From the NCBI RefSeq assembly GCF_000417875.1, contig NW_006920874.1, forward strand, positions 21,137 to 85,136: DNA of 64,000 nt, written 5' to 3'. Source of the DNA: Pseudozyma flocculosa PF-1 (lineage: Eukaryota > Basidiomycota > Ustilaginomycetes > Ustilaginales > Ustilaginaceae). The translations under genes and the position numbers were made by a program. Positions 21,011 through 64,000 of the stretch are shown here, piece after piece. The notes beneath the pieces were generated by a model, which did not search any database, had not been told where the DNA came from, and saw only the letters and a list, made by a program, of their open reading frames with translations. How positions within the stretch are numbered: position 1 is the first letter of the stretch; each line of letters starts with the position of its first letter.

Positions 21011-21774
21011 TCTGGGGGAGGCGAAAGAAGGAGGAAAGGAGAGCGGTTTCTTTGTCAGGGGAAAGCGTATAACCGGCAACGCCTTGCACGCTTGCAAAAG
21101 GCGACGCCTCTGCACGCTTGCAGAGGCTACGGGGGCGCAATTGGGAGCTGGCCAGGCTGGGTGGCAGGTCGGCTGGGCCAACAGCGACTCTGCGGGGTGC
21201 CGACGTTACCTGGTGAGCATAGGGATAGCTATACTCACTGTATTCTGGATCGGTCCCGGGCCAGCTCGACTTGAGAAAGAAGACCTGGGAGGTGGCTGAA
21301 GAAAGAGGAGCGACGAGTAGATTTTTTGTCAGGGAAAAGCGTATAACCGGCAACGCCTTGCACGCTTGCAAAAGGCGACGCCTCTGCACGCTTGCAGAGG
21401 CTACGGGGGCGCAATTATAAGCTGGCCAGGCTGGGTGGCAGGTCGGCTGGGCCAACAGCGACACTGCGGGGTGCCGACGTTACCTGGTGAGCATAAGGTA
21501 GCTATACTCACTGTGTTCTCTGTCCGTCGGCTGGTTGGGAAAAGACCTGCAAGGTGGCGAAAGAAAGAGGAGCGACGAGGAGTGGATTTGTTGTCAGGAA
21601 ATGCGGATGATGGCTAGGCCTTTGCATGCTTGCAAGAAGGCAACGCCTCTGCATGCCTGCAGAGGTGACGGGGGCGCAACTATGGGCTGGCCAGGCCATG
21701 AGACAGCTAATTGTGGGGCCAGCGACGCCGCTAGGTGCCTCCTCAGACGTGGCGAGCATATCGCTATACTCACT
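21011..21774 (-). repeat. E1 tail: three tandem exon-intron units
   Basis: Read on the minus strand after the E1 stop codon, three tandem units each start with GTGAGTATAG, carry a CTGACAAA branch-type motif and end in a pyrimidine tract plus CAG. Predicted introns are 21773-21547, 21511-21285 and 21238-21012, each about 227 bases by hand count. They are separated by small exons 21546-21512 (35 bases) and 21284-21239 (46 bases). The two right-hand units are nearly identical; the one nearest the gene has diverged. All splice signals are retained, so the array looks transcribed and spliced as a 3' untranslated region. The split direct repeats of tyrosine-recombinase retroelements are an alternative reading. 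Confidence 0.7.
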
Positions 21775-21817
21775 GTGTTTGATCGATCCGGGAGCGTCTT
21801 GATGTCCCGCGGCGCGC

Positions 21818-22990
21818 CTAGGCATCCTCGAGCCTGAGACCGTGGCAGCGGAAGACCGGGTGCCTGCCATTGCAAGCGAGGCACTTGTGAGAGCGCCCGC
21901 AGCGTTGGCCTGCGCAGCGGTTGAGGTTGAAGTTCTTGCACACCTTCGGGCGGGCGCGCTGCGCGTCGCGCTGGGCCGGGTTGTTGTTGTTGCTGCGCGG
22001 GTCGATGGGACGGAGGTGTGTGTTGGAGAAGTCGGCGTCGATGGCGGCCCATTCAGCGCCGCTCGCCGTGCCCAGGCGACGGCGGCAGACAGCGAGGTGG
22101 TAGCCGACCACACCGCGCCACTCGTACAGGCTCGAGAACACGATGATGTGTTCGAGGTGCGCAAGGAGGCCCGGGGCCAGGTCCGGCTGCTCTCGGCTGC
22201 CGACGAGGAGCACAATGCCGACGTAGGTCGACCACGAGTCGCAGAGAGCGCCGATGCAGCTCAGAGCCTGGAAAAGGGGCTCGTCGGCTCGCTCTCCCTG
22301 GTCGTTGCGCGCCGGGTGATGCTGAGGGCGGTACGCGGGGTTGACGAGGATGGCGAGCTGCTCGGGAATGAAGCGGTTGTCGGCGATGGCCTCGACGACA
22401 TCGCGAGGGACCCAGGTGTACCTGGCGATGGCTGTGCTGATGGCCCCGTTGCCATCGAGCTGCTGGGGAGGCGCCGTGGTCGCGGGCTGGGCGTCGAGCC
22501 TGGTGAGAATCATGTCGAGGGCAGCTGACTGTCTGTCGATCTTCGAGGCCAGCGTAGCTTGGCCGGCCTCTTGCTGGTCCAGGCGCTTCTGGATGCCCCA
22601 GATGGCGACGTCGGTGCGGTCGGTTCGGCAGGAGGCGGCGCCGGGGCTGTTCATGTGACCATACGGGAGGTCGACGTGGCGGCAGGGGGTGTCGTCATTG
22701 TCGTTGTTGTCGCGGCCGTAGTCTGAGCGGCCGGGCGTCATGACGCGACCCTCCTGTCCGCTGTGTTGGTAGTCGTGCCTGTCGTGGCGCGGCGTCTCGT
22801 CGTAGTGGCGCTTGGTGGCGACGGGCGAGCGAGATCGGCGGCGTCGGAAGGCCGGGGTGGGCGTCTCGTAGCGGAAGGGGCGTCCGCGGATGTCGAGGGG
22901 CCTGTCCATGGGGCTGCCGTTGTCCGAGGGGGATGCCATGGTGCCGGTGTCGTCGCCCTGGCCGGTGAAGTACTTGATCAGCGGGAGCAT
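21818..22990 (-). CDS. E1: Gag-like protein with CCCH plus CCHC zinc module
   Basis: A 390-residue protein. The N-terminus is Arg/Asp/Asn-rich and disordered. The middle (about residues 190-320) has the helical block LAPGLLAHLEHIIVFSSLYEW and VVGYHLAVCRRRLG, which resembles the Gag-like domain of basidiomycete DIRS-type retroelements. The C-terminus ends with CKNFNLNRC, four residues, CGRSHKC, LAC and NGRHPVFRC, that is a CCCH finger joined to a CCHC knuckle that should bind nucleic acid. The leader has two introns (23430-23321 and 23073-23021), so the ATG at 22990 is the first in the spliced message. No reverse transcriptase or recombinase lies nearby: it is either a domesticated Gag gene or a Gag-only element. 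It shares promoter and tail design with E2-E5. Confidence 0.7.
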   Translation of the reverse strand: MLPLIKYFTGQGDDTGTMASPSDNGSPMDRPLDIRGRPFRYETPTPAFRRRRSRSPVATKRHYDETPRHDRHDYQHSGQEGRVMTPGRSDYGRDNNDNDDTPCRHVDLPYGHMNSPGAASCRTDRTDVAIWGIQKRLDQQEAGQATLASKIDRQSAALDMILTRLDAQPATTAPPQQLDGNGAISTAIARYTWVPRDVVEAIADNRFIPEQLAILVNPAYRPQHHPARNDQGERADEPLFQALSCIGALCDSWSTYVGIVLLVGSREQPDLAPGLLAHLEHIIVFSSLYEWRGVVGYHLAVCRRRLGTASGAEWAAIDADFSNTHLRPIDPRSNNNNPAQRDAQRARPKVCKNFNLNRCAGQRCGRSHKCLACNGRHPVFRCHGLRLEDA

Positions 22991-23708
22991 CGTGGTGGCG
23001 TCGCCTGGCTGTCCGGGTGTCTGTTGAGCGAGAAGGAATGCAGAGCAAGGCGGCCGAGGTAAGCGATACTGACTGGAGCCGACGATGACGAACGACTGTG
23101 AAGGGCGACGTACGGGAGTGACAGGGCTTGCGGCGCTTCGAAGGAGCTTGCGGCGGAGCGAAAGTAGACGGCTTGAGGCGTGACTGCAGGCGGAAGAGGA
23201 CGAGCAGCAGAAGCGTGAGCGAGACTGAAGGCGACCGGCGGCGGAGGCTGTGGACTGATGCTCACTGTACGAGGAAGAGGGCGACCGACGATGCTCGAGG
23301 CTTGATGAGATCCCGGGCGGCTGCACGCAGAGACGAGGGTAGGCAACGAGGGCAGAGGGGTGAGCGACACTGGGAGCGACGAGCGAGCCGGCATGGACGG
23401 GAGCAGATGGCCACGGCGAAGGATACTCACGAGACAATAGGCCAAGCGTCGGTAGCTGAGAGCTCGAAGCGCAAGCGTCGGCGCGTTGGTGCGCGGTGGT
23501 CGACGAGGCTGGGTCGGACGCTGAGAAGGGAGGTCGGTCCGGGGAGGCGGGGCTGGGGCCCGACCGAAGAGAAGGCGAAGGTGGGTCGGGCTGGGGAAGG
23601 AGAGGCTGGCCGGAGGAGAGTCGTCGAGGGAGGATAGTTTGGTAGGAGCCGGAGATAGCTGATGATTGTGGTGGATTGAGGGGAAGAGGGAAAACGGTTT
23701 GGAGGGCC

Positions 23709-23716
23709 CCTTTTAA
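23709..23716 (-). promoter_or_regulatory. E1 core promoter motif TTAAAAGG
   Basis: TTAAAAGG on the minus strand, followed by a pyrimidine-rich leader containing CTCAATCCACCACAATC. The same motif and leader type precede E2, E3 and E4. Confidence 0.6.
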
Positions 23717-23937
23717 GCCTTTCGAGGGGAGTCAGTCGTCGCTGGAGCAGGCTGTCTTTTGCTGGGGAGCGAGGGGGATTTTGCCCAGCAGAGCAGGCCC
23801 AGCGGCGCTGGAGGACGGGCACGCACCAGGGCACACAGGGCAGACGCGGTGGGTCTGGGGGGCTCTCTCTGGCTGCCTTGGAGCGGACGCTGCTATGCTG
23901 CTCGAAGGAGGGCAGGGCACTCGAGGGAGGAAGACCA

Positions 23938-24175
23938 GCTCTTCCTTCCACGCCGTCGCGGCAGCTACTTTTCGCTCTGACTCGAGCGCTTGCTCGACCT
24001 TCCACGTCACCTCCTCGAGGCCTGCTGCTCTGCCAGCTTCGCCTTGGAAGGCCCTCTCTTCCTTCCACGTCGTCGAGCGGCGGCCACCTTCCGCTCTGAC
24101 TCGAGCGCCTGCTCGACCTTCCTCGTCAGCTCCTCGATCGGCGGCTACAGCCACGCTGCATTTGTGTGCCTGAGG
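23938..24175. repeat. E1 upstream tandem repeat with TGACGTGG motif
   Basis: Two copies of a unit of about 119 bases starting CTTCCTTCCACG and containing CGCTCTGACTCGAGCG and TGCTCGACC. The first copy holds CCACGTCA (24002-24009), the complement of the bZIP/CRE-like TGACGTGG that also lies upstream of E2, E3 and E4. A regulatory role is an inference. Confidence 0.6.
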
Positions 24176-31507: not shown

Positions 31508-31590
31508 AGAGGAGGAGGAGGAGGAGGAGGAGGAGGAGGAGGAGGAGGAGGAGGAGGAGGAGGAGGAGGAGGAGGAGGAGGGAGGGGAGG
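31508..31590. repeat. (GGA)n microsatellite
   Basis: About 24 uninterrupted GGA triplets, then GGAGGGGAGG. A polypurine tract able to form triplex or G-quadruplex structures. Confidence 0.95.
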
Positions 31591-31805
31591 AGGAACCGTA
31601 ACCGTAACCAGGCCGCTTTGCCCCCTGACTGCCTGACGGCGCAGCCGCTGCGTCTAACTACTGTAATTGAACGCGGCTCTGCCCGTCGGGATCCGGTATG
31701 GTTCCGAAGGCGCAACAGTCGGCTCCGACCCGCTTCTCCCGGCCGAAGCAGCAGCGGAGGGTGCAACGCAGCCACAGCGCTCGAGTGAGCGAAGGACAGG
31801 GGCCG

Positions 31806-31857
31806 AGGTCGAGGTCGAGGACGAGGACGAGGTCGAGGACGAGGTCGAGGTCGTTCC
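31806..31857. repeat. GAGGTC/GAGGAC six-base repeat
   Basis: About nine copies of GAGGTC or GAGGAC in tandem. Simple repeat outside any supported gene. Confidence 0.85.
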
Positions 31858-36310: not shown

Positions 36311-37420
36311 AGGCCGCGGTTCGCCGCGGTGTAGATGCGCCGCAGGAAGGCGAGGCCGTGTGGGATGACCTGCGTGACGAGCTGCAGGAGGGCAGCAACC
36401 CGCTGTCCGTCCAGCGGCGAGGCGTATCTGCGGTCCAGAAGGAAGGCGACGGAGGCGAGGATGCTATCGCGGCGATCGTCCGTGATGGCAACGGTCTGGC
36501 GCACTGTGTCGACCCCGATACCGAAGATCCCTAGGCGCGTCGAGCCCCAGAACGTCTTGGCTAGGGGAAGGGCAAGATCCAGAGCGTGGCAAGCCATCGC
36601 CAGCGCGCGGACGGGCGCGGCTGCGTTCCAGCCAGGCGATACCGCGCCGAAGAGGTCGTCGAGATCGTGCTCGACCGGGTGCGGTGTAAACGACGCCATG
36701 ATCCAGTGCGGCATCTCGGCGAACAGGTCGAAGAGAAGAGGCGAGCTCTTGCCTCCAAAGGTGAGGACCGTCTCGGCGAAGAAGTGGACGTCGAGCATCC
36801 GGCCGAGGAGGCGGGCCTGGAAGAGCGCGGCCACGATGTGCGCAGGAAGGCATCGACCGCATCGCCTTCCCACAGGCGGCAGCCGAGGTTGGCGGCCACG
36901 TAGTCCAGCACCGCGGCCAGCGTGACATCTTGGATCGCCGTTGACGAGCGGGCGACGCCGGGGTTGACCGAGGGTAGGCCAGAGCCTGGAGCGCGCAGGT
37001 GGGAGAGGTGGTGGATGATGCGCAGCTTCGTTGACCTGGGCTTGGGGACGGTACCGATGGGGGGGCAGACTAGCCGCCAAGACTCCGGGTGGAACTCGAC
37101 GAGGCAGATCTCGGCGAGGCGCTGCGCGACCTCTGCGCGGACTTTCGCCAGGCCCTGCTCGTCCATGTGCAGGTCGGCGGCGCGCTCCTACCACGCCTCG
37201 CCTTCGGGTAGGCCGGCGTAGCCGAGGCGGATACTGTGTTGGATGGCGCCGAGGACTGCGTCCGCGGTGCGGCGGTCGGGGTAGTCGGCGAGGAGGGAGC
37301 TTCTGCGTTCCACGGCAAGCTGCGTGAAGCCGACGCCAGTCGTCCGGTCGGCGGGGTGGAAGAGGCTGTCGGGGACGGTGGTATTGGGGCGAGGCCAGGG
37401 GATAGAGATGCGGCCAGCGA
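36311..37420 (-). pseudogene. DIRS-type retroelement copy B, reverse transcriptase
   Basis: Minus-strand reverse transcriptase broken by a stop at 37188 and a frameshift near 36860. In order it reads GRISIPWPRP and VPDSLFHPAD; then WRLVCPPIGTVPKPRSTKLR and DVTLAAVLDYVAANLGC; then the catalytic box HDLDDLFG, intact with both Asp residues; and RLGIFGIGVDTVRQTVAITD with LLQLVTQVIPHGLAFLRR. The last two are the thumb motifs typical of DIRS-group elements. It lies downstream of the Gag part at 37744-38760, in the same orientation. Confidence 0.75.
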
Positions 37421-37743: not shown

Positions 37744-38760
37744 CTAGTTGGTGAGGGTGCCACGCTTCGAGGGGGCGTCGCAGCGCCTCCAGGAATGGTC
37801 GGACTGGCCGCACTGGTGGCAGACGTGCTTGCGCTCGCACGGGTCGGCCTGGCAGCGACCAGAGTGCCAGTTCCAGCAGACGTTGTCCTTCGGCGAGCTG
37901 GAGGCCGGCGCCGGGTGCTGCTTCCTCTTGCTGAGGCTGAAGCTGGGGTCCGGGGGCGGCGCCGTGGGCTGGGCCTTGCCGAGAACGCCGGAGAGCCTGG
38001 GGACGTAGAGCTCGTGGTCCAGATGGGCCCACACCGCTGCTGGGGCAACGGTGTAGCGGGCGCAGCAGACGCGGAGAGTGTTGTCGGAGACGCTGTCCCA
38101 CGAGAACGTGGCGTCGAGGTCGGCCAGGTGGTCCCGAAACTTGAGGAGCGCAGCGCTGAGGGAGCGGCCCTGCGAGGCGGCCGTGCGGACGGCGGCGTCG
38201 ACGTGCCACACCCTCGTCCCTCCTTGCGACTTAAGGCGCGGATGGCGTTGGACTGCGTCTGCGTGGTGATAGCCAAGCCGTTGAACCGGACAGTCGTGGC
38301 TTCCGGGGCGGCGTCGACGGTCCAGGCAGCGTCGGCGAGGTGCAGCAGGTCGTGGGCAGGGTGCGTGTCTGCGTACAGATCCGCAGAGATCCAGGGGAAC
38401 AAGGGCTTGTGGAACGTGCCTGACTCACCAGCCGTGGGAGCCAGGGCAGGCGGGCTGGGTGGCGCGGTGAGTGGGGTTGGTGGCGAAGCGGCAACGACGC
38501 CTGGCAACGAGACGGCCAGACGGACGAAGTCGCCGCGCAGCTGGGCGTGGAGGTCTTGACGCAGCTGGGCGAAGGCGACCGGTAGCTCCGAGGGGGCAGT
38601 GGGCGGCGTCTGAGCCTGGCGTAGCTGCTCGACCTCGGCCTGTAGGGCGAGGATACGTGCGCAGTCCGCTTCGGCGCGCTGGCTGGCGGAGAACGGGCTC
38701 CTGTTGCTGGCAGGTGCGTTCGGCAGCGGCCTCGTCGGTGGTGCGCTGGACGGCTACTTT
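37744..38760 (-). pseudogene. DIRS copy B Gag with CCCH plus CCHC zinc module
   Basis: Minus-strand Gag-like frame, split by a frameshift near 38230. The first part carries a coiled coil (ILALQAEVEQLRQAQ) and FPWISADLYADTH. The second has RSLSAALLKFRDHLADLDATF and LRVCCARYTVAPAAVWAHLD, then the zinc module CWNWHSGRC, four residues, CERKHVC, HQC, GQSDHSWRRC, and a stop at 37744. The zinc module has the same spacing as in E1, E2 and E3, linking those genes to DIRS Gag. Confidence 0.65.
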
Positions 38761-43906: not shown

Positions 43907-43960
43907 GGTGTGCTTGTCTGGAAGCGTGTCTGTCCTCGTGATGGGAAAGACTGTATAGAA

Positions 43961-45206
43961 CTGTGAACACACAAAGAAGAGGAGCGAGGCTTATTTTGTC
44001 AGCTTACCCCTTCTCAAATGGAGACAGAGGGACTCTTTGCCTTGACACTGAGGCGCGTTTGTTCGAGTCGCGACTCGCCAACACAAGCCCAGGCAGGTCA
44101 AGGGCCAGGACAAGCCTGGGCAAGGCAAGTCGAGGCAAATCGCGACTCAAACCACCGCGACTCAGTGCCTGCACCAGGCATCGACGTGTTATATGGCGCA
44201 GTAGGTGTCCGGACGCCGCCGATGCCGAGCCACTAATAAGCTGGTGAGGAAACTCACCTATGGACCTTCGAGTCGACTGTAAACCTGGCTACAGCCCTGA
44301 CGGACGGATTGAAGTCTGCAAACAGACAAAGAAGAGGAGCGGGGGCTTATTTTGTGTCAGCGCATCCCCTTCGAAAGAAGGAGGACCCTTCGCCTTGACA
44401 CCGAGACGCGGTTGGACGAGTCGCGGTTTGCCAAAACACGCCAAGGCAAGTCAAGGGCCAGGACGAGCCAAGGCAAGTCAAGGCAAACCGCGACGCGCCC
44501 AACCGTGCCCCCGTGCCTGCACCAGACATGACGGGGCCACCGCCATGCCGAGCCACAAGATAACGCTGACTGAGGGTAACTCACCTTTGACCGGACTGTA
44601 AACCTGGCTGTAGCCCTGGACTGCGTCTGCAAAAAGATGCGAGAAGAGGAGCGGGGGTTTATTTTGTCAGCTCATTCCCTTCTTCGAGAAGGAGTACTCT
44701 TCGCCTTGACACCGAACGAGGCGCGGTTGTACGAGTCGCGTTCTGCCAAGACACGCCTAGGCAAGTCAAGGGCCAGGACGAGCCAAGGCAAGGCAGGTCA
44801 AGGCAAACCACAACGCGCCCAACCGCGCCCCCGTGCCTGCACCAGACATGGCGGGGCCGCCGCCATGCCGAGCCACTAAACTCGCTGACTGAGCATCACT
44901 CACCTACAGGGACCTTGGAGTCGACTGTAGAACTTGCTCTAGCCCTGGATTGAGTCTGCAAAAAGATGCGAGAAGAGGAATGGGTACTATTTCGTCAGCC
45001 TACCTCTCCCCGAATCGAGCCGAAAAAGAGGGATCCTTGCCTTGACGCCGCGGTACCTCCCGACAAGCCGTACCCGTCAACTCCAGGCACGACGAGGCAA
45101 AGAGACCCGCGGCGCCTGCTCCAGGCACCGAACAAAGGCTGTACAGGACGTGGCTGAGACAATGCCCGGTGCCGGACCGCTAATAGAACTGGTGAGCAGA
45201 ACTCAC
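43961..45206 (-). repeat. E2 leader: four tandem exon-intron units
   Basis: On the minus strand four tandem introns precede the start exon: 45206-44956, 44903-44627, 44584-44316 and 44257-43961 (251, 277, 269 and 297 bases). Each has a GTGAGT donor, a CTGACAAAATA or CTGACGAAAT branch-type motif and a CT tract ending in CAG. The small exons between them (44955-44904, 44626-44585, 44315-44258; 52, 42 and 58 bases) resemble each other (CAGGGCTACAGCCAGGTTTACAG-type core). Exon lengths are not multiples of three and contain stops, so they are leader, not coding. The array appears to have grown by duplication of an exon-plus-intron unit. Confidence 0.75.
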
Positions 45207-45460: not shown

Positions 45461-45468
45461 CCTTTTAA
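45461..45468 (-). promoter_or_regulatory. E2 core promoter motif TTAAAAGG
   Basis: TTAAAAGG on the minus strand, followed by a pyrimidine-rich leader with CTCAAACCACAACAATC, nearly the same as in E1. Transcription probably starts near 45430. Confidence 0.6.
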
Positions 45469-51005: not shown

Positions 51006-53344
51006 GTTTCGTATTGCAGGGGTGGTGGGTTTCGGTGGTACAGGTGAGAAAGCGAAGCGTAGCGATGGGACGAGAGGGGTGGCGAGCAAGACGATATCGA
51101 GTGAGAGAGAGGACGAGGGAGAAGAGGACAAGGACGGTGGAAGAGGGAAGCTGACTCGGTCAGCAGCCTCCGAGGGAGTCCTTCACTGGACTACTGCACC
51201 CCGGCGGCCCGACTCGACGTCGAGGGAAATGAGATGCACCAAAAAGTCACCTCGACGCCCCGACCGAGGGCGTATTCGGTCAGCGGGCGTTGGTGCTGCA
51301 GTATCGTGTGGCGTTGAAGTGGGGTGCGTCCGAGTCTAGGGCTCGAAGGCGATATGAAGCGTGCCTTACCCCGCCGAGGTCACTCCGAGCGGGGCGTCGA
51401 GGGCGTTGTAGGAAAAAATGAAGGCCGGCGACCCAGGGCCCGTGCTACCAAGGATCTGCCGCCGTATGGACGGATACATTGCAAGGCTGGAAAGCAGAGC
51501 AGCTAGGCGGGCGTGCTTGCTCGAGACGGGCATGGCGGTGACGGCCGTCATGGTGATCAGGTAGGAGACGGACGGATGACGACGAGTGGACGCGCCTAGC
51601 CCCTCTCCCGCCCTGGCCGGCGCCAGCGGGCGACGGGCGAGGTCGAGTGGAACGGGTCCGAGCCTCGGTGCCTCCGCGCCTACGAGTCAAACTTGGCCGG
51701 CCGAGAGATAGGGTGCAGCGCCACCCACAACCCTCGCTCCCAGCTTCGCCGGCCGAGAGGCAGGCTCGAGCGCCAGCCAGCTCCCCTGCTCCCAGCTTCG
51801 CCCAGCCTCTCTCGCTACCCTGCCGACAGGCATCCTGTGGGTCGCAGAGGAAGGGCACAGCGACCCGTTGGGCTGGCCTCGTAAGGGCCGAGCCGATCCG
51901 CTCTTGGCCGCACCGTCTCGCTCCGCTCTTTGGCCCTCGCGCGCTCGCAGTCTACTCGGCCGGAGCGGCTGGACGTTTTGCGAGACCGTCGTCCGTCTTG
52001 GAGCTGCTGCGGCGCCTCGTTGGCCCCGATGGCATGGCGCAGCGCTCTGTCTCTCGGATCCCTTTTGCGGCTGTGCAAAGGCCGGGGCGAGCTCCGCTCT
52101 CTCACCACGTCGAGGTGCCGCTTTCTGATTGGTGCGGTGCGCCATATCATCGACCGCGCATGTCGCCCCGTAGCTGTGTCTAGGCCGACGATGCCAGCTG
52201 CCATCGCCATGATGCCGACGTAGGGGGACAGGGTGGCTTGCTGCCTGCACGGCATCGAGCACGATGTCACCATTTGGGTCCGAGCGATGTCCAGCTACGA
52301 TGCGGGTCCCCTCGAACAGAGATGGTGAATTGGCTGGGTGGTCCCTCGTTGGAAAAAACGGGCGAGGAGGGCACGGGGCTACCGGCCATGGCGGCCTGTC
52401 TGCACGCCTGGCTGGGTGCCGATTCTCTGCGAGGGAGGGACGCTGCCCAGGTCCTGCTTGAACTCGGAATGCAGCCGGGCCCGGCTAGAGGCTGGGCTAG
52501 GTTTGGGCCCAGCCCCAGCCCCGCCCAGCCTAGCTACCTGCAGCGCCCGTTGGGCGTGCGAGTGTGTGGCCACGCCGACCGTTCACCCATGTGGCAGGCG
52601 GCTAAGCTGGTTGCATCGTCCGGGATGCGCGCATGCATGCATGCATTTCCCGCGCCCTCTACCAACCGCCCGTCTCTGGTTGGTCTGCCGCCAAGGTCTT
52701 TCACGCTACCTAGCCTACAGCTTTGCAGCGATGCTACCTACCGCTCGCCTCTGCCAGCCTACAACCGATGGCACAGGACCGCCGAGGGGCGAGCACACGC
52801 TCTGGCCGCTGCCCAGCATCTGCTGCCCCAGCCTCGAGCACCGGCCCTCGGCCATACGCTTTCTGGCTCCGTCGTGCTCGCACACGAGTCCCGAGAGCTG
52901 TCCGTGGCTTGTCGTTCCGCCTCGCACTGCCAAAGAGATGCTGCCTGCTCCAAGGCCAAATTGTGGCGTGGGAAAGCAACGCACCGCACCGCCTCACATC
53001 GCAACGCCTGTGCAGCACCACGGCGGCCAGCGAGCCTCGTCCGCCTTCGTGATTGGACGTTTGGCGTATGCTGATAGGGCTCGCCGCCGTCCCTGCTCGT
53101 CGCAGCGGCTACTTTTCGAGTCAGAGCGCTGACGTGGAAGCCAGCAGAAGAGCGGCCACGGCGCCGCGGTCTCGGTCCTTGAGCCCACAAGCGCCCGCAC
53201 AAGGCTCAGTCTTGTCCTTCGGCCTGTAGCGCCGCTGCTGCTCCAGGAAGCTGGCACCGCCGCCAACGGCAGGGCAGCCCTGTCGCTGTGGTCCAAGGGA
53301 ACAGACGCTGATCCAACAGAGAGGAAAAAGGGCTCGTCGAAAGG
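51006..53344. other. Gene-poor DNA upstream of E3
   Basis: The promoter of the secreted-protein gene lies at the left. A minus-strand ATG at 51551 begins a weak signal-peptide-like frame (MTAVTAMPVSSKHARLAALL) ending at 51366 without a recognisable mature part. CCGGCCGAGAG units repeat at 51693-51790. The E3 upstream segment at 53101-53150 carries CGGCTACTTTTCG and TGACGTGG (53130-53137). No gene is supported. Confidence 0.4.
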
Positions 53345-53352
53345 CTTAAAAG
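53345..53352 (+). promoter_or_regulatory. E3 core promoter motif TTAAAAGG
   Basis: TTAAAAGG, then a pyrimidine-rich leader and a leader intron (53427-53520, donor GTAAGC, acceptor CTCACAG). Same layout as E1, E2 and E4. Confidence 0.6.
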
Positions 53353-53535
53353 GGGGCCAGTCGTCGTCCCATCTTCTTCCCTCCTTTCCATCACTCCCCA
53401 TCCAACCACCTCCGAGCCTCCCTTCGGTAAGCTTGCCCTCCGCCTCATCGGATCACACTCACGCCTGCTGCTAGGATCGCTGACTGCCCTTCCTCCACCC
53501 TCCTACTGGTCTGCTCACAGACGCTCGGCTTCGAC

Positions 53536-54096
53536 ATGATCGGCAACATCTTCTCCTGGGGCGCTGCCCCGAACAAGCGCGCGGCCGACCCTACCTCGTC
53601 TTCGGCATCGTCTCGCGCCTCAGCCAACATCCGACATCGCTACGAGATGCCTACCCCGGCCCAGCACCGTCACTCGCACCGCATCGACACGCTCGGCCCG
53701 CACCGCAAGTACGAGATCTCTACCAGCACCGGTCTACAGTTCGACACCCTGCTTCGCCCCACCACGGCCTCGGTCAACGGCGGGCATGTCCATGTCCTGC
53801 TCGACGAGATGTGCAAGCAACTCCGATCCCAGCCGACGTGCTTGAACGCCATGGCCGCCCAGCAGGAGTCACTCAACAAGACGGTCAAGAGGCTCAACGC
53901 CAAGGTCGCCGCCTACAGCTCCACCAAACCGAAGGACATCGGCTTTCACGAACCGCGCGACACTCCGTGCGTCAACTTCAACATCAAGCGTTGCAAAGGA
54001 TGCAGCAACCCGCACGAATGTCTTCTTTGCCGCGCGAACCACCCGGTCCACCGTTGCAAGATCGCCGCGATGCAGGAGGAAGAGCTGTCGCGCTGA
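53536..54096 (+). CDS. E3: small protein with CCCH plus CCHC zinc module
   Basis: A 186-residue protein from the first ATG after the leader intron. The N-terminus is Ala/Ser-rich and basic; residues about 55-130 may fold as helices (HVHVLLDEMCKQLRSQ, MAAQQESLNKTVKRLNAKVA, a coiled coil). The C-terminal zinc module runs from Cys145 to Cys174: CVNFNIKRC, KGC, SNPHEC, LLC, RANHPVHRC. Spacing equals that of E1, E2 and the DIRS Gag, but the Gag-like helical block of E1 is missing, so only the coiled coil plus zinc module remains. The stop is followed after 12 bases by a GTAAGT donor that opens the tail array. Probably a nucleic-acid binding protein of the element family. Confidence 0.7.
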   Translation: MIGNIFSWGAAPNKRAADPTSSSASSRASANIRHRYEMPTPAQHRHSHRIDTLGPHRKYEISTSTGLQFDTLLRPTTASVNGGHVHVLLDEMCKQLRSQPTCLNAMAAQQESLNKTVKRLNAKVAAYSSTKPKDIGFHEPRDTPCVNFNIKRCKGCSNPHECLLCRANHPVHRCKIAAMQEEELSR

Positions 54097-54108
54097 ACCA
54101 ACCATCGT

Positions 54109-55135
54109 GTAAGTTCTCCCCGGGCTTACCAGAGTGCGGCACCCGGAGACGACGGCGGGCCTCTCCAGTCCGGGATTCTGGACACGCACGCCGCCCTCGC
54201 CGATTCTGGGAACTGGACACGGTGGCGGGCCTCGCCGGGACCTTGGGCCTGGACACGCGCACCGCTGGCTGCCTCTTCGGAGGTGGTCATGCCGGCGCGC
54301 CTCGCCAGCGCTCAAGCCTGGACACGCCCGTCGCCCTCGCCAGCCTCTTGGGGTCGGACACGGCGACGAGCCTCGCCAGTTTTCCGGGGCTGGACACGCA
54401 CGCTGCCCTCGCCGACTCGAGGACTGGACACGGTGGCGGGACTCGCCAGGAGACCTTGGGGCCCGGACACGTGCGCCGCCCTGGCTGCCCCTTTCGCGGT
54501 GGTCACGCCGGCGTGCCTCGCCGGACCTCAAGCCTGGCCACGCCCGTCGCACTCTTCAGATCCCTCGAGTCGGACACGGCAGCGTGCCTCGCCAGTCCTC
54601 CTGGGCTGGACACGCCCGTCGTTTTCGCCGGCTCCCGTGCGACCTATACTGACAATATCAAGGGGGCCCCTTTTTTTATCCTGGATGGCGGATTTCTGTC
54701 ATCCAGCACGACAGGACACCTACCGATTGGCAGCAAGTCCGAGTCCACATTTGTAAGTTCTCCCCGGGCTTGCCAGAGTGCGGCACACGACTCGACGGCG
54801 GGCCTCGCCAGTTCGGGCCTGGACACGCCCATTGCCCTCGCCAGCTCCTATGAGTTGGACACGGCAGTGAGCGTGGCCAGGCCCGGTTCTCAAGCCTGGA
54901 CACGCCCGTCGCCCTCGCCAGCTCGGTTGAGTCGGACACGGCAGCGTGCCTCGCCAGGCCGAGAATAGGGCCTGGACACTCACGCTGCCCTCGCTGGCTC
55001 AATGACTGGACACGGCGGCGGGCCTCGCCAGACCTCGGGACCTGGACACGCCCGCCATCTTGACGTCTCCCGTGCGACCTATACTGACAATATCAAGGGG
55101 GCCTTTACTTTGGATGTCGGATTTCCGTCATCCAG
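54109..55135 (+). repeat. E3 tail: two tandem exon-intron units with minisatellite
   Basis: Two introns in tandem after the stop codon: 54109-54706 (598 bases) and 54753-55135 (383 bases). Both start GTAAGTTCTCCCCGGGCTT, share a TACTGACAATATCAAGG branch region, and end TCATCCAG. The exon between them is 46 bases (54707-54752). Each intron is expanded inside by an imperfect minisatellite of about 25-30 bases around CTGGACACGCCCGTCGCCCTCGCC-type units (more copies in the first). The unit is present once more after E4 (58847). Confidence 0.7.
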
Positions 55136-57436
55136 CACAAACAGGATTTCAGCCGCGCAGCAGCAAGTCCGAGCGCCCGAGCCTCACCTGGTCTTCTATC
55201 TGAAGTCGACCGCGTGTAGAAGCAACAGGCGCTATGCCGAAGCAGGTCTTTCCAAGGCCCTTTGCTCGCACGCGAGAAGGAGTCTCGCGGCGATCACACA
55301 GATCCCGCCGGGTGCTGGGCAAAAAGCGCCTGCAGCCTCGTAGCATCACGGTGGCCGGAGCCGCGTAGTGTCGTAGCCTTGTCGCACGCCGGGACCCCCG
55401 TCGTGGCAAATGTTCCGCTAGTCTGAAATGACAGAATGTCTCCGCTCTCGCCTGGCCGTTGAATCTACCTCTATCGCTGCACCCGTGTGACTGCTTGGAC
55501 GGATGGTTGCGTGTTTTGAGAAAACATACAAGGCGGCTCGGGAAGAGGGGACACGGCCGTGTCTGCTCGGACCCAGCCGTGTCCCAGCCGAGTGGATGCG
55601 ACGTCGTTCTATGTTGCCCAAGTACGAGGCTGGGATACAGGGGGATTCCATCAGCATCGAGTAGAACTGCCTTGTACACGCTTGTTCGGCCCGGTAGGCA
55701 GAGGGAGCATGCCTTTCATCGACCCAGCGAGCAGCAGAGAGGTCGAGCAGTTCTCGATGAGGGCGCGAGGCGAGGCCTACAGCGTTGGGTAGCAGCACCC
55801 ATCGAACACGAGAAGCGCCTTGGCCATGCTAAGATGGGCTTGCAGCCCTCCCAGCTTGACACTCGAGGAGCGAGTAGCAGTAGCGTCGGGGTGGCGGATG
55901 TGCCGCCTGGGCAATGTCATCGAACGTAGACCAGGATCCCGGCCCCGAAGACACTATCGCTGCCTCGGTGGCCCTGCTCGGCGACGGTGTGGCTGGGGCG
56001 GTGCGCACTGCGGATCCGTTGTGGACCTGCAATCTTGGCACTCACGTGCGATGCAGTACTCGTCCTGACCTGTCTCGTCCTCCTGGCGAGCGACGATGAA
56101 GGCCTCCGTCGTCGGGCCAGCGGGTAGATCCTCGCTGGTACCGTCGAGGCAAGACTGTGAGACGGCCACGAGCGGAAGAAGGCGTACTTCGAGCGTGCTT
56201 GGCTGCTTGCAACCCTCGATGTGATTGCCGATTACCAAGGAGAGTAGCTGCTAGCCTTACGCCTGTGAGGTGCTCCCTGAAACCTGGGATAATGCAGCCA
56301 GACCGAAGCTACGCCCAGCCTGCAGCGGCCGTTGCACATATGCGTGGGACCCATTGGCCTGCCATGTGGCAGGCGGCTACGCCGGCTGAACCGGCAGAGG
56401 GCGCGTGTGCATGCAGCCGTGCATTTGCCTGTGCGCGTCCTGCCCAGCCCCAGACTTCCTTCCAGAGCAGAGTAGTAGTAGTAGTCCTAGCCTGCTCGCC
56501 GCGCCTCTATCCCCTCCGGCGTCTGCAAGTAGCTGCCGACGATCAGCTTGCGGTGTACCCCTGTCCCTGCTTCCCACGCTGCCTCGAAGAAGCGTCCACA
56601 TGGTTCGTAGGGGCGCGCGCAAACTGAACCCTCCCTCAGCGTCGTATGACTCGGAGCGGGCATGGTGCGAAGACGTGGCGTGGCTGTGCTGCCTCCTCGT
56701 CCTCGTTCGCACGACGATCGTGGCTTATCCTCTGCAGGAACGGCTGCAGCCAACGATGGGCGCAAGCTAGAGGCAAAGCCCGGCAAGCCTCTCCGCCATG
56801 TGAAAGGCAGCCTCTGCCAGGGTGTCGTGGACCAGCCAGGTGCGGGCGTGAGAATCACACGCAGCGTTGGGACGTCGCAGCCTCGAGGCGCAGCAGCATG
56901 GTTGCATTGCGCTCGGCCTTGCGGCTGCCAGTTTTAGAGTTGGGTTCAAGATGGGTGCATCGCCGCGAAGCCACCCAGTAGTGTGTGCAGATGCCTGTGC
57001 ACTGAGCTTCACGTTACTGCTCCGGAGATCCAAAATCTGGCCAGGTCTGGATGCTGCTACAGCATTGCTCAGCCGGCTCTTGGACCCGGATGGGCATGGG
57101 TGTACGAGCAGCCACAAACGGTGTCTGCGTCCTAAGCATGTGGTCCACGATGCCACGGTATTTGCAGCTATGGCTTGCAGCTGAATTGCACAGCGGCTAC
57201 TTTCGCCGTCGAGGACGGTGCTGACGTGGAAGCCAGCTCGTAGCTACCGTCCCCCTGGGAAGCTGAAGCAGAGCCAGAGGCATCCCGCCTAAGGCGCCTC
57301 ATGGACAGCAATGGACAGCGACGTCTTGCACCGGGCCACTGCAGTGCAATCTCGTGCTCTCCACGTAGCAGAGAGCAGTCAGTGTACCGAGCTTGAGATC
57401 CCCTCTCTACGGCCTCGAGATGGGAACGGAAACGGG
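55136..57436. other. Gene-poor DNA between E3 and E4
   Basis: No supported gene. The E4 upstream segment at 57190-57240 (CAGCGGCTAC, TTTCG, TGACGTGG at 57222-57229, GAAGCCAGC) closely matches the E3 upstream segment at 53103-53145. Confidence 0.4.
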
Positions 57437-57444
57437 TTAAAAGG
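57437..57444 (+). promoter_or_regulatory. E4 core promoter motif TTAAAAGG
   Basis: TTAAAAGG, then CCCCTCATCTTTCTTTCC-type pyrimidine leader and a leader intron (57579-57695, donor GTAAGC, acceptor AACAG). Confidence 0.6.
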
Positions 57445-57735
57445 TGCGATTTTGACCTCCCCTCATCTTTCTTTCCATCATCCCTCATCTGCTCTTTCCT
57501 CTCGACGCCACAGCCCCCTCTTCTCTACTCACTCCTCCCTCTACCAAGCGTGCCTTATCCTCTCCTTCGTCCAGGCCGGTAAGCCTTGCACTTTCCCCTG
57601 GCCCCTTCCCCTGCCGCTTTTGCTTACCTCGGCGAGTGCTGACCTGCTCTTCTTCGCCGCCGCTGGTCCCCCCCTTCCGCTGCTCTGATCAACAGGTTCA
57701 GCCCTCCAGATCCCTGCGCTAGACGACACGAAACA

Positions 57736-58835
57736 ATGGGACGAGCCAAGGAGGAACGCGCACGCCTTCGCCACATGAAAAAACTCCTCCGCCGCTACGA
57801 CGTCGATATCATCCGAGACATGACGACCTCGACCTCCCGTATTAAAATCAGGTCGAAGCTCAAAACGAAAGAAAAACTGGCTCGGTCCGCCCGCCGAAGC
57901 GCTTCCGAGGCCGGTCCCAGCCACAGCGCCCCCAGGAACGCCGACAGGAACGCCGACAGGAACGCCGACACTGCCACACACTCAGCTGCCGACGATAACA
58001 CTCGCGCGAACGCAAGCAGCACCACCGACACCAACCATGCGCCTGCGCCCGAGCGCTACCCGAACGCTGCGTCCGACTTCGCGAGGATCCTCGAGCTCGC
58101 TGCGCGCACCTCGGACACGGCCGCCTGCGTCGAGATCTTCCTGCGCACCTGCGCTATGGCCGTCCGGGCCTGGTCAAGCTGGACTTCGTCGCGCAAGGCC
58201 AAGAGGGCAGCCGCGGAGGCCGAGAAGAGCAAGAACGAGCGCACGGCCGAGTCTGATGGCCAGCGCGACGCCGCGGGATCTAGCAAGGAAGCCGAGCGCC
58301 CGACCGAGCAGCCCCAGGACGACGACGAGCGTACCGACGCAGCGCCCAAGCCCAGCAGCAGCGAGGCGGCCACCCAGGAGGCCGAGGCCAAGCCCAAAGA
58401 CGCTGCCGAGACCGCCGCGTCTATCCCGGACGACCCCGGGGTCAAGAGCGAGCACGACGACGAGGACAGCGGTCCGGCGGATACCGAGGTGAGTTCGCTC
58501 ACTAGCGCAGTTGTGAGGGAGGGGCGTTCTTTGATCGCCCCCCTGGAGAGGGTTCCTCTTGAGCGGCCGCCGGCCCCCCGCTTGGAGGTCTTCGGACACT
58601 CCAAGTGCGCTCGGCACGTCGAGCCAACCAGGTTCAGCAGAGCGGGTTTCTTTGCGATGACACGTGCACTGGTCATGCTAACAAAATAAACACTCTTTTC
58701 GGCTGGCTGTTTGGCTCGCTGATCCGCTTGACGGTACGTTTGTCCGTCGAGCAGCAGCAGCACCCCTCGCAGGCTTCTACGTACTCGGCCTCGGCCGTTG
58801 CCCTTGTCTCCAACATCGAGCCCGCCGCGGCCTAG
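57736..58835 (+). CDS. E4: Ala/Glu-rich charged protein of the same gene family
   Basis: First ATG after the leader intron. Exon 57736-58488 is joined to 58755-58835 by an intron with a GTGAGT donor after Glu251, a CTAACAAAATAAAC branch region (58677-58690) like those in E2, and an acceptor in GAGCAG before CAGCAG. The protein has 277 residues; without splicing it ends at 58689. The N-terminus is basic (KEERARLRHMKKLLRRYDVD). A NADR repeat follows (three copies, residues 74-85), then a probable helical domain (FARILELAARTSDTAACVEI to MAVRAWSSW) and a long Ala/Glu/Lys-rich disordered stretch. It lacks the zinc module. After the stop, a GTAAGT donor opens one tail intron like those of E3. Function unknown. 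Confidence 0.6.
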
Positions 58836-61340
58836 ATCCATCCATTGTAAGTCTCCTCGGCCTTGCCAAGGTGCGGCACCCCACCACGGCACAGCGCGCC
58901 TCACCACTCTCCGGGGCCAGATCACAGCCGTGTACCGCCTGTACTGACGTTTGCTTTGGACGTCGGGCCTCCGCCACGAAGATACCCACAGGCAATACGA
59001 GAACCCATCGGCCGGCAAGCTACCGGCTGCACCGACGACAAAGGACCACACGTCCCCCGTTTCGGCATCGCTCCAACAAGACGTTCGTCACACCCGGCGG
59101 TTCGCCCGGCCGGATGCGGGTACATGGGACCTGCGCGTCGCCGGCCGCCCTTTGGCCAGGGCCCACCTCGGGCAGCGTTCGGCGGGACGACTCGCAGTCA
59201 CTGGGTCGTCGAGGCCCATTACCCTGATCCCCTAGTCTAGAGCACCGATCCCTTCGTATCTTGACCCAGCGAGCCGATCCGGAACATCTCGGGTGGCCTA
59301 TCGAGCTCGGCCGCAGTCCCGTAGAAATTCAAGCTCTTCGTCGTCGGCTGCCGGAACCGGGCTGTGTGTAGTGCAGGGCAGCGACCGAGCTGGCCTCACA
59401 GCGTCTGCGCTCGGGCCTTTCTGCCTGCGCTGCAGTCAGCCTGGCGTAGCGGCATGCAGGCAGAGGGCGCGGGCGTCTGGACACGGTTTCTGCCTCTCTT
59501 TGGCTGACCCTCGTTCTTGCTCCTACCCACCGGCCCACCACCTCCGTAGCCGCACCGGTATTCGCCGTTGTCCGTCGCCGCCGCTCTCGCATGCTTCCCA
59601 CTTCTGCCTCGGCCCCGTCGCCCTCATCAGATTACCGCCCGGCAGCCAATCCACCGCCCAGCCGCTCTCGCTCAACGGCCGTCTCGCGCTGGCAGCCTCG
59701 GGAGACGAACCGAGCCATCCGCATACCAGCCGTCGACACCCTGCTCAACAGCGTGCGCTCGAGATTGCCTGGCATCCTCGAAACTGGCCATACCACCCCC
59801 GCAACACCATCCCTGCATCGTTCAGCGTTCCCTTTTGCCTTGCCCCGGCCGCCAAGCTCAGCCGCCGCGCCGCTTTCCCGCCCACCGCCCTTCCAATCGA
59901 CGGAAGCGTTGGAGAGCTCTCTCCTACGTCCCCGGCGGTGGACGGCGTCGACTCGCCCTTGCGCTCCCTCGTCTCGGCTTCCGCTCCCTTTTCCGCTCCC
60001 CTGTCCGCTCCCATGCCCGCTTCCTGCCCTGCTGTTATCGCATCAACCGCATCGGCGGCGGCCTCGACAAGACCCACAACATCAACGTGGCGAGCCGCTT
60101 CGCCACCGACCCTGCTGCTCCGCCCGAGATGAGTCCTGCTGACCCTCCGCTTGCTCTCCTTGCCTCTCTCTCTTCGCCCTTCAGCCTCGCCTCTACCTTC
60201 CCCTCCCTACACCACCGTAGCAGCAGGCCCAAACTTGTCAGCAACGGCCGTGGGTTCATTCCGTGAGCACTGTTACCTGCCTGCCGGCGCACCTGCTGTG
60301 CCATTAACCGCTGTCCCGACTGACGCCTACTGCTCCGTTCCTCTTTCCTCTCCAAATCCCCTGCTGCCAATGCTGCGGCCACTCTCGCAGTGCCCTGCAT
60401 TTGCCCTTGTCCTCGCCATCAACCTGCCGACCCGCTCTGCTTCGCCTAGTCTCGCCGCGCCGTGCCACCTCGCCCTGCCACCTCTCCTTCCCACTTGTCT
60501 TGCCTTGCCGACTCGCCTACGTCCCGTCTTTGGTCCGATCCGCCATCTGTCCGAACGACGACTCAGGAGGGCTGCACCGGCTCTTCTCATCTTGGCGTGG
60601 TACCGGTATGAATGTCGCACTAACTACCGCCTTCGCCGCTCGATCCTTCTTGCCCTGCCCTTCCCTACCCTACGCGCACGCCGGGTTCAGCAGATGCACC
60701 TGTGCGTTCCGACGGCACGAACCGGCCGAAGCACACCTTCGGCTCGTCGGCCGGGGCATGAGATGATGACAGCGTGTGCTTAGGCGGTGTACAGTACGCT
60801 ACAAGCAACGGCGGTCCGATCCCAGCAGCCCGTGTACAGGACAGAGCAGGAGCGTGCTGAAGCGTCCTCAAGAAGATAGTATCGCATGTCTGGCCATGAG
60901 CAGCGGTAGGGCGTAGACGCGACCAGGATGGGATGGGGCGAAGCGCCTGACTTTCGGGGCAGGATGATCCGAGTCGTCGCCTGGCCTGGCTTGGACTGGC
61001 CATGCTGCGAGACCCAAGGCGAGGCGAGGCAAGGTGCGACACGAGCCCACGGCATGGCAGGTCCACGCATGTATGGCTTCCGACGGTGCGACGACGATGT
61101 CGGGACCTCGGTCTCAGCCCCCACGATGCAGCCCTCGACGACCGCGCCAACCCCAGAGAGACAGGAGAGGAAGATGCGATGGGCAGGCTGGGCAGATCCG
61201 ACCTTCTGCCAACTGGCATCCGTAGGGCAGCGCGGCGCGTCGGGCACGGTACGTGCGTACGCGTTCGTCGTCGAGCGGCTGGCCACGGCTGGCTGGCGGG
61301 CGCTCTGCGAGAGTGGACACGACTGCACCCGAGGAGCTCA
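58836..61340. other. E4 tail intron and unassigned DNA
   Basis: A single tail intron starts GTAAGTCTCCTCGGCCTTGCC at 58847 and seems to end near 58980, homologous to the E3 units. From 59 to 61.3 kb there are many overlapping GC-rich open frames (for example 59293-60132) without recognisable domains; part may belong to the decayed transposon on the right. Confidence 0.4.
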
Positions 61341-62655: not shown

Positions 62656-63589
62656 TCAACTGGACTTAAACGCTCGTGGCGAAGACCTTGAGCACTTGCT
62701 TGAACTCGCCGATGGTTCCCTCTGCAGTGCCCTGCAGGTTGATTTCGCTATCGGCTGACTTACTGGACGACGTTGAGAGTGATCTGAACGCCGGCGGGCG
62801 CTTGACGCTAGTACCACGACCATCGACAGGAGCGCCGCTACCGGTACCAGCCGGCCGACCGCCGCCAGAAGGTGTACCGCACCCGGCAGGACGGCTGTTG
62901 GTAGGAGCGCCGTGGTCGTGCGCCTTCAAGCTGTGAATCGGCATGATCTTTGTCTCGTCGTTGTGTGTTTTGACCAGAACCGGAGGCAGGAGGCGCGGCA
63001 CAGGCGGCTGCTCGAACACGAGGGCGGCCTCGGTCCAGCCGAGGCAGGGTGTGCTCGCCTCGGTAGCGCATCGGCCCGCTCGCTCGCCGTCCGAATTTCC
63101 AAACTGATGCCGAACTCACCAAGACGGCTCCGTCAGCCTCGGGACATCGCCCCGTTCCGCCGTTGGACCGGCCCGCTGCCGCGATCGCTGCTTGTTTGTT
63201 GGTCCTTTGCCGATGCTGACGATCCTCGAGCGCACGACGATCCTCGAGCGCATCTAGGCCTCACTGCGCTAACAACCACCTCGTCCGATGGTCCAGCAGC
63301 GCCACTTCCTGTAGCCAGAACTCGGGGTTGCTGAATCCCAGCTCAGTCGAAATGGTCTTTTCCTAGAAGTCATGCATAGAATACAATAGTACGTGAGATT
63401 GCTAGAGTGCGTGAGGGAAAGTTGCGATTGAAGAGACGGTCAAGTCATGTGTACATATGGGTATGGTGAGGGGAATCCGTGACGGGGACAGAGAGGCGTG
63501 ACGGGGAACAGTGCTAGGGAACGGAACGAGGGAGAATAGGCGAAGCAGGGAAATGAGGGTCCGCTCCAAGGGGCCTCGGTGCCGTTGCT
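62656..63589. other. Unassigned DNA right of the transposase and E5 3' region
   Basis: A minus-strand frame (63019-62666) reads KTHNDETKIMPIHSLKAHDH and ends EFKQVLKVFATSV; it is plausible protein-like sequence but not recognised. Bases 63230-63260 repeat GATCCTCGAGCGCA twice. From about 63350 to 63589 lies the presumed 3' untranslated region of the minus-strand E5 gene. Confidence 0.3.
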
Positions 63590-63851
63590 CTAAGGGGCGG
63601 CGGCAGCGGCGGCGGCGGCCGGGCGGTTGTCCTGTTGCTGCGGCGAAGGAAGAAAAGGGAGAAGGTATGTTTTTTGTCAGATGAGGGTGCACCGTCAGAG
63701 AGCTCTCTGATCGCGCTGTGCGCCCGTAGCAGCCGAAAAGACCGCTGGGGGAAGCTCGGACAGGATCCGAAGCTAAGGTCGTGCTGCCGAAAATCGGTCG
63801 GACCGCGCAACACGCCTTTCTCTGGTGAATCATAGGACTCACGGGTTCAGG

Positions 63852-63886
<35 letters not shown>

Positions 63887-64000
63887 GGTTGTCCTGCTGC
63901 TGCTGCAAAGGGGAGAAGTGGAAGAGGGGGCCTTTTTGTCAGATGAGGGTGCACCGTCAGAGAGCTCTCTGATCGCGCTGTGCGCCCGTAGCAGCCGAAA
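63590..64000 (-). CDS. E5: C-terminal end of a gene with duplicated coding exons (partial)
   Basis: The last two exons of a minus-strand gene that starts beyond the window. Exon 63902-63843 reads QQQDNRT, ten alanines and PEP. The final exon 63637-63590 reads QQDNRP, eight alanines, P and stop. The intron between (63842-63638, 205 bases) has a GTGAGT donor, a CTGACAAAAAAC branch region and a CCGCAG acceptor. An upstream intron from 63903 to beyond the edge repeats the same sequence (identical over about 70 bases, 63676-63750 versus 63929-64000). The exon-intron unit has therefore been duplicated in frame, adding a QQDNR-polyalanine segment. The gene's identity is unknown because its body lies outside the window. 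Confidence 0.6.

Follow-up and report, generated by a model that had tools for sequence, protein, structure and literature searches.

Structured introns with hairpinned donors and a family-specific branch motif in a Pseudozyma flocculosa gene family: possible structure-gated splicing

In Saccharomyces cerevisiae, stems that shorten splicing distances are common in introns, whereas stems are under-represented near canonical splice sites (PMC12350175). Intron structure can also be regulatory, as Rpl22p inhibits the splicing of RPL22B pre-mRNA via an intron stem-loop (PMC4838235). The present work concerns a stretch of 64,000 nucleotides (nt) of the yeast-like smut fungus Pseudozyma flocculosa PF-1 (Ustilaginales), called the window (contig NW_006920874.1, here C6, positions 21,137-85,136, in an assembly of 23,045,585 bases and 33 contigs), and a clustered gene family, represented there by E1 to E5, whose members are apparently joined by a class of spliceosomal intron. 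Like the structured yeast introns (PMC12350175), these introns carry stems from donor to branch and from branch to AG. Unlike them, they hold the donor itself within a stem and, instead of being spread over many unrelated genes, they belong to one family with a branch motif exclusive to it in the genome. The logic proposed for them resembles that of Rpl22p (PMC4838235), in that an RNA-binding protein would act on a stem-loop within the intron of its own gene, but it is here a proposal only, the family comprises many paralogues, and the hairpin lies at the donor itself.

Introners (PMC9860276) and the sister stwintrons of Hypoxylaceae (PMC8469720) likewise comprise introns that resemble one another, in some cases with inverted repeats, whereas the family introns are little alike between genes, showed no dispersed copies and are restricted to one family. 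At the protein level, the EKA avirulence-effector family of powdery mildew is also a fungal family tied to the first open reading frame (ORF) of a retroelement (PMC4641428). Its link is to ORF1 of a long interspersed nuclear element, whereas the P. flocculosa family resembles the Gag of E0, a decayed retroelement of the window. The fungal tyrosine recombinase retrotransposons (DIRS/Ngaro; PMC3783388) share with E0 the order Gag then reverse transcriptase; unlike them, the family members scanned carry no reverse-transcriptase or recombinase domain by Pfam, recombinase not having been searched for separately. A 2013 survey reported Ngaro as absent from Ustilaginomycetes (PMC3783388). Structured introns, Gag-derived genes and tandem duplication are each known in kind; no description of their combination, or of a branch motif confined to one family, was found in the open-licence PubMed Central literature.

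The best explanation, held tentatively, is a host-resident P. flocculosa gene family whose splicing would be gated by intron structure and possibly autoregulated. The family, its shared promoter parts, the intron class and a structure signal are evident at the level of the DNA, as are the frames of E4 and E5, which remain open once the introns are removed. The original prediction had described E1-E5 as a five-member family built on one cassette. This observation was confirmed and the evidence supports a genuine family sharing a cassette, the count of five being too low. Indeed, a six-frame scan of C6:1-250000 (12,729 bases of which are N) for a CCCH+CCHC zinc module, defined as C-x(5-12)-C-x(1-8)-C-x(3-5)-H-x(1-2)-C-x2-C-x(3-4)-H-x4-C, yielded seven modules. 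They lie in E1, E2 and E3, where the module had been predicted, in E0, and in E6 (95.3 kb), E7 (219.2 kb) and E8 (226.8 kb). Protein searches of the genome added E9 (1103.5 kb), E10 (1122.8 kb) and E11 (1153.8 kb, with a frame interrupted by stops) on contig C3, and a further zinc module at C10:32.75 kb (E 0.0017). A Gag-like ORF without zinc module at C7:678.4 kb resembles part of the E1 domain.

The products are Gag-like or heptad-rich proteins ending in the zinc module, or short basic proteins. By alignment, E1, E7 and E8 share a domain N-terminal to the module; in E2, E6, E9 and E10, it is preceded by stretches read by eye, without a coiled-coil predictor, as heptad-like. No module is present in E4 and E5, whose ties to the other members are promoter and intron features, so that the notion of one Gag family does not fit all members. 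The kinship of E4 and E5 is seen by eye only, as a query with the E4 protein did not retrieve E5. E4 is tied to E3 at the DNA level by a 78-nt match (74%) across the starts of E3 intron u1 and E4 intron 2, and by a second match in an upstream block.

Twenty-one introns were assigned by hand at 11 loci (those of one gene being numbered u1, u2 and so on, or i1 and i2 in E4). X28, a remnant in the window, was excluded as no donor was found there. All 21 have the GT donor, CTRAY branch and AG acceptor of U2-type introns. The donor is GTRAGT in 20 of them, the first X164 intron having GTGACT, and lengths range from 135 to 598 nt. The 14 introns of E1-E5 all have a GTRAGT donor, a CTRAC branch and an AG end. 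As predicted, tandem exon+intron units were assigned in E1 (three introns), E2 (four), E3 (two) and E5 (three), and two single introns in E4. The arrays stand past the stop codon in E1 and E3, ahead of the ATG in E2 and within the coding region in E5. The donor directly follows the stop codon in E7 and E8 and lies 8 nt from it in E9, 11 nt in E4 i2, 12 nt in E3 and 44 nt in E1, the spacers of E4 i2, E3 and E9 holding similar words (ATCCATCC or like). The coding exons of E5, two of them of 33 and 60 nt, are interrupted by three introns and stay in a single frame. The spliced product would read QQMDNRPAAEP / QQQDNRTA..PEP / QQDNRPA..P, and the unspliced frame stops 14 residues into the first intron. 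Removal of E4 intron 1 likewise joins exons in frame. Within genes, units are 72-93% identical over aligned bases in introns and 76-88% in exons, and introns are thus not clearly the more conserved part; the amplified units are local tandem duplications.

The branch pattern CTRACAAAAWAA has nine matches in the genome, all nine inside family introns, against none for the reversed pattern. A looser form, CTRACAAAANAW, fits 12 of the 21 introns and has 13 genome matches, all at family loci (one for the reversed pattern). Four of these 13 (X28, E12 and two in X164) are at loci discovered via the CTRACAAAA scan itself, the other nine at loci known independently via protein, promoter or array.

The donor tends to be paired. 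Under a strict rule (five contiguous pairs counted from the first base of the intron, no more than one G-U, loop of 3-16), 16 of the 21 introns have a donor hairpin, whereas among the other GTRAGT sites of C6:1-250000 it is present at 7 of 126 (p 3.9e-12). E12 was picked up via a scan for hairpin plus branch; when it and X164 are left aside and only the first intron per gene is counted, the figure is 8/9 (p 2.5e-8), E11 being the exception. With G-U disallowed, 8/21 introns and 2/126 other sites qualify. The excess holds by donor spelling, GTAAG being paired in 5/5 vs 2/11 and GTGAG/GTGAC in 11/16 vs 5/115. A looser rule (17/21 vs 22/126) was superseded because it admitted long loops and many G-U pairs. 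The scan for hairpin plus CTRACAAAA returned eight sites in the actual sequence, whereas two reversed controls yielded zero. In the introns right after the stop of E7 (GTGAGTCTTTCTGGCTCAC) and E8 (GTAAGTCTTTCGGCTTGC), both arms are altered, GTGAG/CTCAC vs GTAAG/CTTGC, and the pairing is retained. The table of donors and partners is no independent proof of covariation since the pairing rule itself couples a donor A to a partner T, and the pairing argument is drawn from the counts per spelling plus E7/E8. That pairing persists with either donor spelling and in both E7 and E8 speaks for the pairing itself having a function.

About half of the introns are also strongly folded. The folding z-scores of the 21 run from -8.35 to +1.24 (mean -3.10, 40 shuffles each), with 10/21 under -3. 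Control stretches of C6 gave a mean z of -0.01 (standard deviation 0.96, lowest -1.68) for 60 random ones of 250 nt with 25 shuffles each, and of 0.28 (lowest -2.87) for 20 of 600 nt with 15 shuffles each; the difference per gene has p 2.8e-5. In ensembles computed with flanks, the donor hexamer is unpaired at 0.18 vs 0.30 at the 126 other sites (p 0.002; per gene 0.007), and the branch window at 0.66 vs 0.35 for the intron body. A hairpin between branch and AG is found in both E3 introns, E4 i1, E8, E9 and X164 u2.

In the mechanism proposed, the 5' splice site would be folded into a hairpin that hides the donor, the internal fold would draw the intron ends together, and the branch CTRACAAAAWAA would mostly stay open, with a second hairpin adjoining the AG in some genes. 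The introns would be removed from the pre-mRNA at a rate slowed by the donor hairpin. Gated splicing is inferred from a donor in a stem being unusual and from the preserved pairing. A protein may open or clamp the hairpin, for which the zinc-module proteins would be the simplest candidates, by analogy with Rpl22p. Intron retention in E4 or E5 would cut short the C-terminus, whereas splicing past the stop (E1, E3, E7, E8, E9) would alter the 3' untranslated region only, hence the fate of the mRNA. A bolder form, which we regard as doubtful, is a private splicing regulon, evolved in one smut lineage, in which the Gag-derived zinc proteins of the family would read an intron code specific to it. 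That code would consist of the hairpinned donor, the extended branch CTRACAAAAWAA and an optional 3' hairpin, and a domesticated retroelement coat protein would control the splicing of its paralogues. With a branch motif private to the family in 23 Mb and hairpinned donors, an uncommon possibility becomes testable, splicing control specific to one gene family and perhaps read by the family's products. If the proteins bind the hairpins, a retroelement-derived splicing regulator would be added in fungi; even without protein binding, the introns form a natural series to study the effect of donor structure on splicing.

Several observations weigh against structure-gated splicing. The link from zinc proteins to introns is only proposed, by analogy. 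Nine of the 21 introns fail the looser branch pattern (E1 u1 and u3, E2 u1 and u3, both of E3, E4 i2, E5 u2 and u3), E6 is without branch motif, and E10 has the zinc module yet an intron read as ordinary. The strict hairpin is missing in five introns (E2 u2, E2 u3, E5 u2, E11, X164 u2). The pattern CTGGYRARN{2,14}ACTYAC, which fits many of the hairpinned intron starts, has 34 matches in the genome, 8 in the family (reversed 10), and most being outside the family, the hairpin by itself is not exclusive. Covariation within the E2 fold is weak, both partners being altered in 8 of 72 pairs, with a covariation term of +1.69. For seven introns (E1 u1, E4 i1, E4 i2, E5 u2, E7, E11, E12), the folding z-score falls inside the span of the 250-nt controls. 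Once flanks are included, the E3 and E4 donors have unpaired values of 0.33-0.61. Branch openness comes partly from A-richness, as an A-rich composition alone would leave the branch open, and the minimum-energy fold pairs the branch in E9 and E2 u3.

Members also share promoter parts. The box TTAAAAGG occurs in the window only at the four sites of Table 1, where the prediction had placed it together with a CT-rich leader common to E1-E4. C6:1-250000 holds six copies; five are correctly placed and oriented before E1, E2, E3, E4 and E8, and the sixth, near E7, has the wrong orientation. Nine start regions were compared (E1-E6, E8, E9, X164; E10 was excluded for lack of upstream sequence). As the box was the comparison anchor, only similarity outside its eight bases counts. 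Among the 36 pairs, 11 score at or above the 99th percentile (15.0) of 900 control comparisons, the largest control score being 103. Four of the 11 match in box or leader (E3-E8, E4-E8, E3-E1, and E1-E2 in the leader), with similarity that extends past the 8-base box; three others, E8 to E1, E2 and E5, are C-rich and were given no weight.

An upstream TGACGTGG had been attributed to E1-E4. It has 11 copies in C6:1-250000, and its extension TGACGTGGAAG only three, before E3, E4 and E1, at 216, 215 and 293 bases from the box, start to start; in E3 and E4 it sits within a common upstream block of 43-47 nt. The attribution holds for these three genes and fails for E2, for which the nearest TGACGTGG, 1,223 bases off and without the TGACGTGGAAG extension, was rejected. 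Common to E2, E5 and E6 is GGTCTCCCGTAATTT, located roughly between -200 and -270; a neighbouring inverted copy accompanies it, an imperfect one in the case of E2. The element AAATTACGGGA(GACC) / GGTCTCCCGTAATTT lies before these genes near C6 66.8 (window 45.7 kb), 86.1-86.3 and 93.3 kb, in both orientations at E5 and E6, and an additional AAATTACGGGA is at C6:162439.

Pfam scans of 20 ORFs gave no domain above cut-off for family members, the sole match being a dynein light intermediate chain. The ORFs of E1-E4, E6-E8 and E0 Gag have no domain above the cut-off, and E2 has ten weak coiled-coil-like matches, all under it. In a set of 5.8 billion proteins, E1 matched itself only among 3,233 candidates, and E8 matched PFL1_02204 of PF-1 alone among the best 7,995 candidates; such searches require shared 5-residue words, and distant relatives may escape them. 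No relative of the family appeared in these protein searches. A single-sequence AlphaFold2 model of the C-terminal part of E1 had a mean predicted local distance difference test score of 41 and was not used. PFL1_02204 is 99% identical to E8 over the 51% covered, and its model (196 aa) departs from the E8 frame midway at what looks like a mis-called intron. As this model and that of E0 (PFL1_06940) look mis-spliced, annotation would overlook the pattern. The closest protein pair found, E7/E8 (57-59% identical), gives 59% identity over 186 codons, a synonymous divergence (dS) of 1.46 and a ratio of nonsynonymous to synonymous divergence (dN/dS) of 0.24, which at the sequence level shows constraint on both proteins. 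This ratio comes from one pair of 186 codons with one partner, E7, truncated, and part of the E7 history may therefore be relaxed.

A Gag origin had also been predicted. E0, at about 36.3-38.4 kb of the window, consists of a Gag frame with the same zinc module followed by a frame-broken reverse transcriptase. Its Gag protein matches E1 (E 0.0011) and E10 (E 0.0015). Its reverse-transcriptase part matches a PF00078 protein (E 3.8e-4) in the 5.8-billion-protein set and is 100% identical to PFL1_06940, in which E0 is annotated as one protein, probably with false introns; Pfam scans of the two E0 pieces found nothing above cut-off. Its motifs were tentatively read as DIRS/Ngaro-like. A Gag origin of the zinc module is plausible, not proven, and the evidence does not extend to E4 and E5. 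The suggestion that the family is actively replicating was not supported. The array DNA of E1 and E2, the introns searched genome-wide as DNA, matched its own locus only in the 23-Mb genome. The 3-kb flanks of E1-E5 and E8 have no terminal-repeat pair except a weak 69-nt match (75%) around E3, taken for chance or local duplication. Judged from its DNA, the family looks host-resident, not like an active element.

The strongest rival to gated splicing, quite possible if on balance unlikely, is that these are ordinary spliceosomal introns of a fast-evolving family, in which hairpins and rods only shorten the distances between donor, branch and AG and regulate nothing. Introns of S. cerevisiae widely contain zipper and downstream stems (PMC12350175), the family introns span 135-598 nt, and in the minimum-energy folds of E3 u1, E8, E9, E2 u3 and E2 u4 the rod closes between donor hairpin and branch, as a mere aid to the splicing of long introns would have it. 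However, yeast canonical splice-site intervals are stem-depleted (PMC12350175) whereas the donor is paired here in 16/21, and E4 i2, of 135 nt only, bears a donor hairpin without a strong fold. It is unlikely that the folds are structure without function, GC-rich tandem or palindromic repeats having grown in the introns and the fold following from the repeat make-up. The E3 introns do consist of tandem repeats, those of E6 and E11 look repetitive by eye, and shuffling breaks repeats and inflates z. Against this, E8 (z -6.27), E9 (-4.03) and X164 u1 (-4.30) are strongly folded without visible tandem array, E11 is repetitive yet has a z of 0.11, donor hairpin and branch motif lie outside the repeats, and the E7/E8 pairing outlasted change in both arms.

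A spread by insertion of introner-like mobile elements, of whose ends the hairpins would be remains, appears quite improbable. One intron class does occur across unlike proteins, in leader, coding and post-stop positions, and terminal inverted repeats have been described for some introners (PMC9860276). Yet no near-identical copies of the E1 and E2 arrays turned up genome-wide, six gene regions compared gave short matches only (E3-E4, E4-E8, E1-E3), and the donor hairpin is local, with no inverted repeat linking the intron ends. Moreover, the exons between units are duplicated too, which makes the amplification one by tandem duplication. That the introns are themselves the product, as stable snoRNA-like or silencing-hairpin RNAs with small exons as a disposable host, is very unlikely. 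Several introns are strongly folded and the array exons of E1 and E2 are small and untranslated, but the folds vary from gene to gene and the exons of E4 and E5 are coding. Rfam gave no match at the gathering threshold over 110,531 bases from 7 sources (E1-E5, E7, E8, E9, E11, X28 and X164 were covered; E6, E10 and E12 left out), and the snoRNA reading was rejected for the stretches searched. Least credible, and barely so, is a still mobile retroelement of which the genes would be non-autonomous Gag-only copies. The zinc module is common to E0, which has the reverse-transcriptase remnant; however, array DNA and protein searches found no near-identical copies, the flanks of six members are without terminal-repeat pair save the weak E3 match, retrotransposition would strip introns, and E7/E8 are under purifying selection. 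A host-resident family with structure-gated splicing is preferred, at the tentative level given above.

Table 1. Coordinates in the window of the family features and of the retroelement E0
Feature	Positions	Strand	Remarks
X28, remnant 3' end of another member	7365..7563	+	branch CTAACAAAAAAT, AG, low-complexity coding exon
E1 structured intron u3	21012..21238	-	
E1 structured intron u2	21296..21511	-	
E1 structured intron u1	21547..21773	-	44 nt past stop codon
E1 coding sequence, 390 aa	21818..22990	-	Gag-like domain and CCCH+CCHC module; no Pfam match
E1 TATA-like box TTAAAAGG, then CT-rich leader	23709..23716	-	
E1 upstream TGACGTGGAAG	23999..24009	-	
E0 reverse-transcriptase remnant, frame-broken	36320..37060	-	ends approximate; no Pfam match
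E0 Gag open frame with CCCH+CCHC module	37744..38424	-	decayed retroelement
E2 coding sequence	42790..43906	-	ATG 43906; one ordinary intron 43900-43822; heptad-like repeat and zinc module
E2 leader intron unit u4	43961..44257	-	
E2 leader intron unit u3	44316..44584	-	no strict donor hairpin
E2 leader intron unit u2	44627..44903	-	no strict donor hairpin
E2 leader intron unit u1	44956..45206	-	
E2 TTAAAAGG box	45461..45468	-	
E3 upstream block with TGACGTGGAAG, common to E4	53103..53145	+	
E3 TTAAAAGG box	53346..53353	+	
E3 coding sequence with zinc module	53536..54096	+	
E3 structured intron u1	54109..54706	+	z -8.35; 5' and 3' splice-site hairpins, long internal rod
E3 structured intron u2	54753..55135	+	z -8.11
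E4 upstream block with TGACGTGGAAG, common to E3	57191..57237	+	
E4 TTAAAAGG box	57437..57444	+	
E4 coding exon 1, without zinc module	57736..58488	+	
E4 structured intron 1	58489..58751	+	GTGAG-TTCG-CTCAC hairpin, branch CTAACAAAATAA, hairpin before AG
E4 coding exon 2	58752..58835	+	in frame; short Q/A/S-rich C-terminus, stop
E4 intron 2	58847..58981	+	11 nt past stop; start resembles E3 intron u1; z +1.24, folding no stronger than in shuffles
E5 last coding exon	63590..63637	-	gene start outside window; ATG C6:85795
E5 structured intron u3	63638..63842	-	u1, u2 just outside window

Outside the window, E12 (C6:147965-148215) has a hairpin donor, a CTAACAAAACAA branch and an AG, with no recognisable gene nearby. 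At X164 (C6:163606-164400), a TATA box is accompanied by a tandem pair of structured introns; one frame runs open across both, but no ATG was found in it. Within the window, GC falls to 0.55-0.58 at 6-8 kb and 14-16 kb, X28 lying inside one such patch, and the degraded member E11 is contained in another lower-GC stretch, L038. Another strain named P. flocculosa has 18.7 Mb and 57% GC and a placement unlike that of PF-1 (PMC10262431). A linkage to the pheromone-receptor locus was rejected, STE3 being at C4:662 kb and the family on C6 and C3; the HD genes were not covered. Between E9 and E10, C3:1106-1117 kb carries a cluster of at least five ORFs, each some 380-500 aa long; by eye they resemble paralogues, with a pattern like GxGFGxVDxPLxxRxDGxYxxR.

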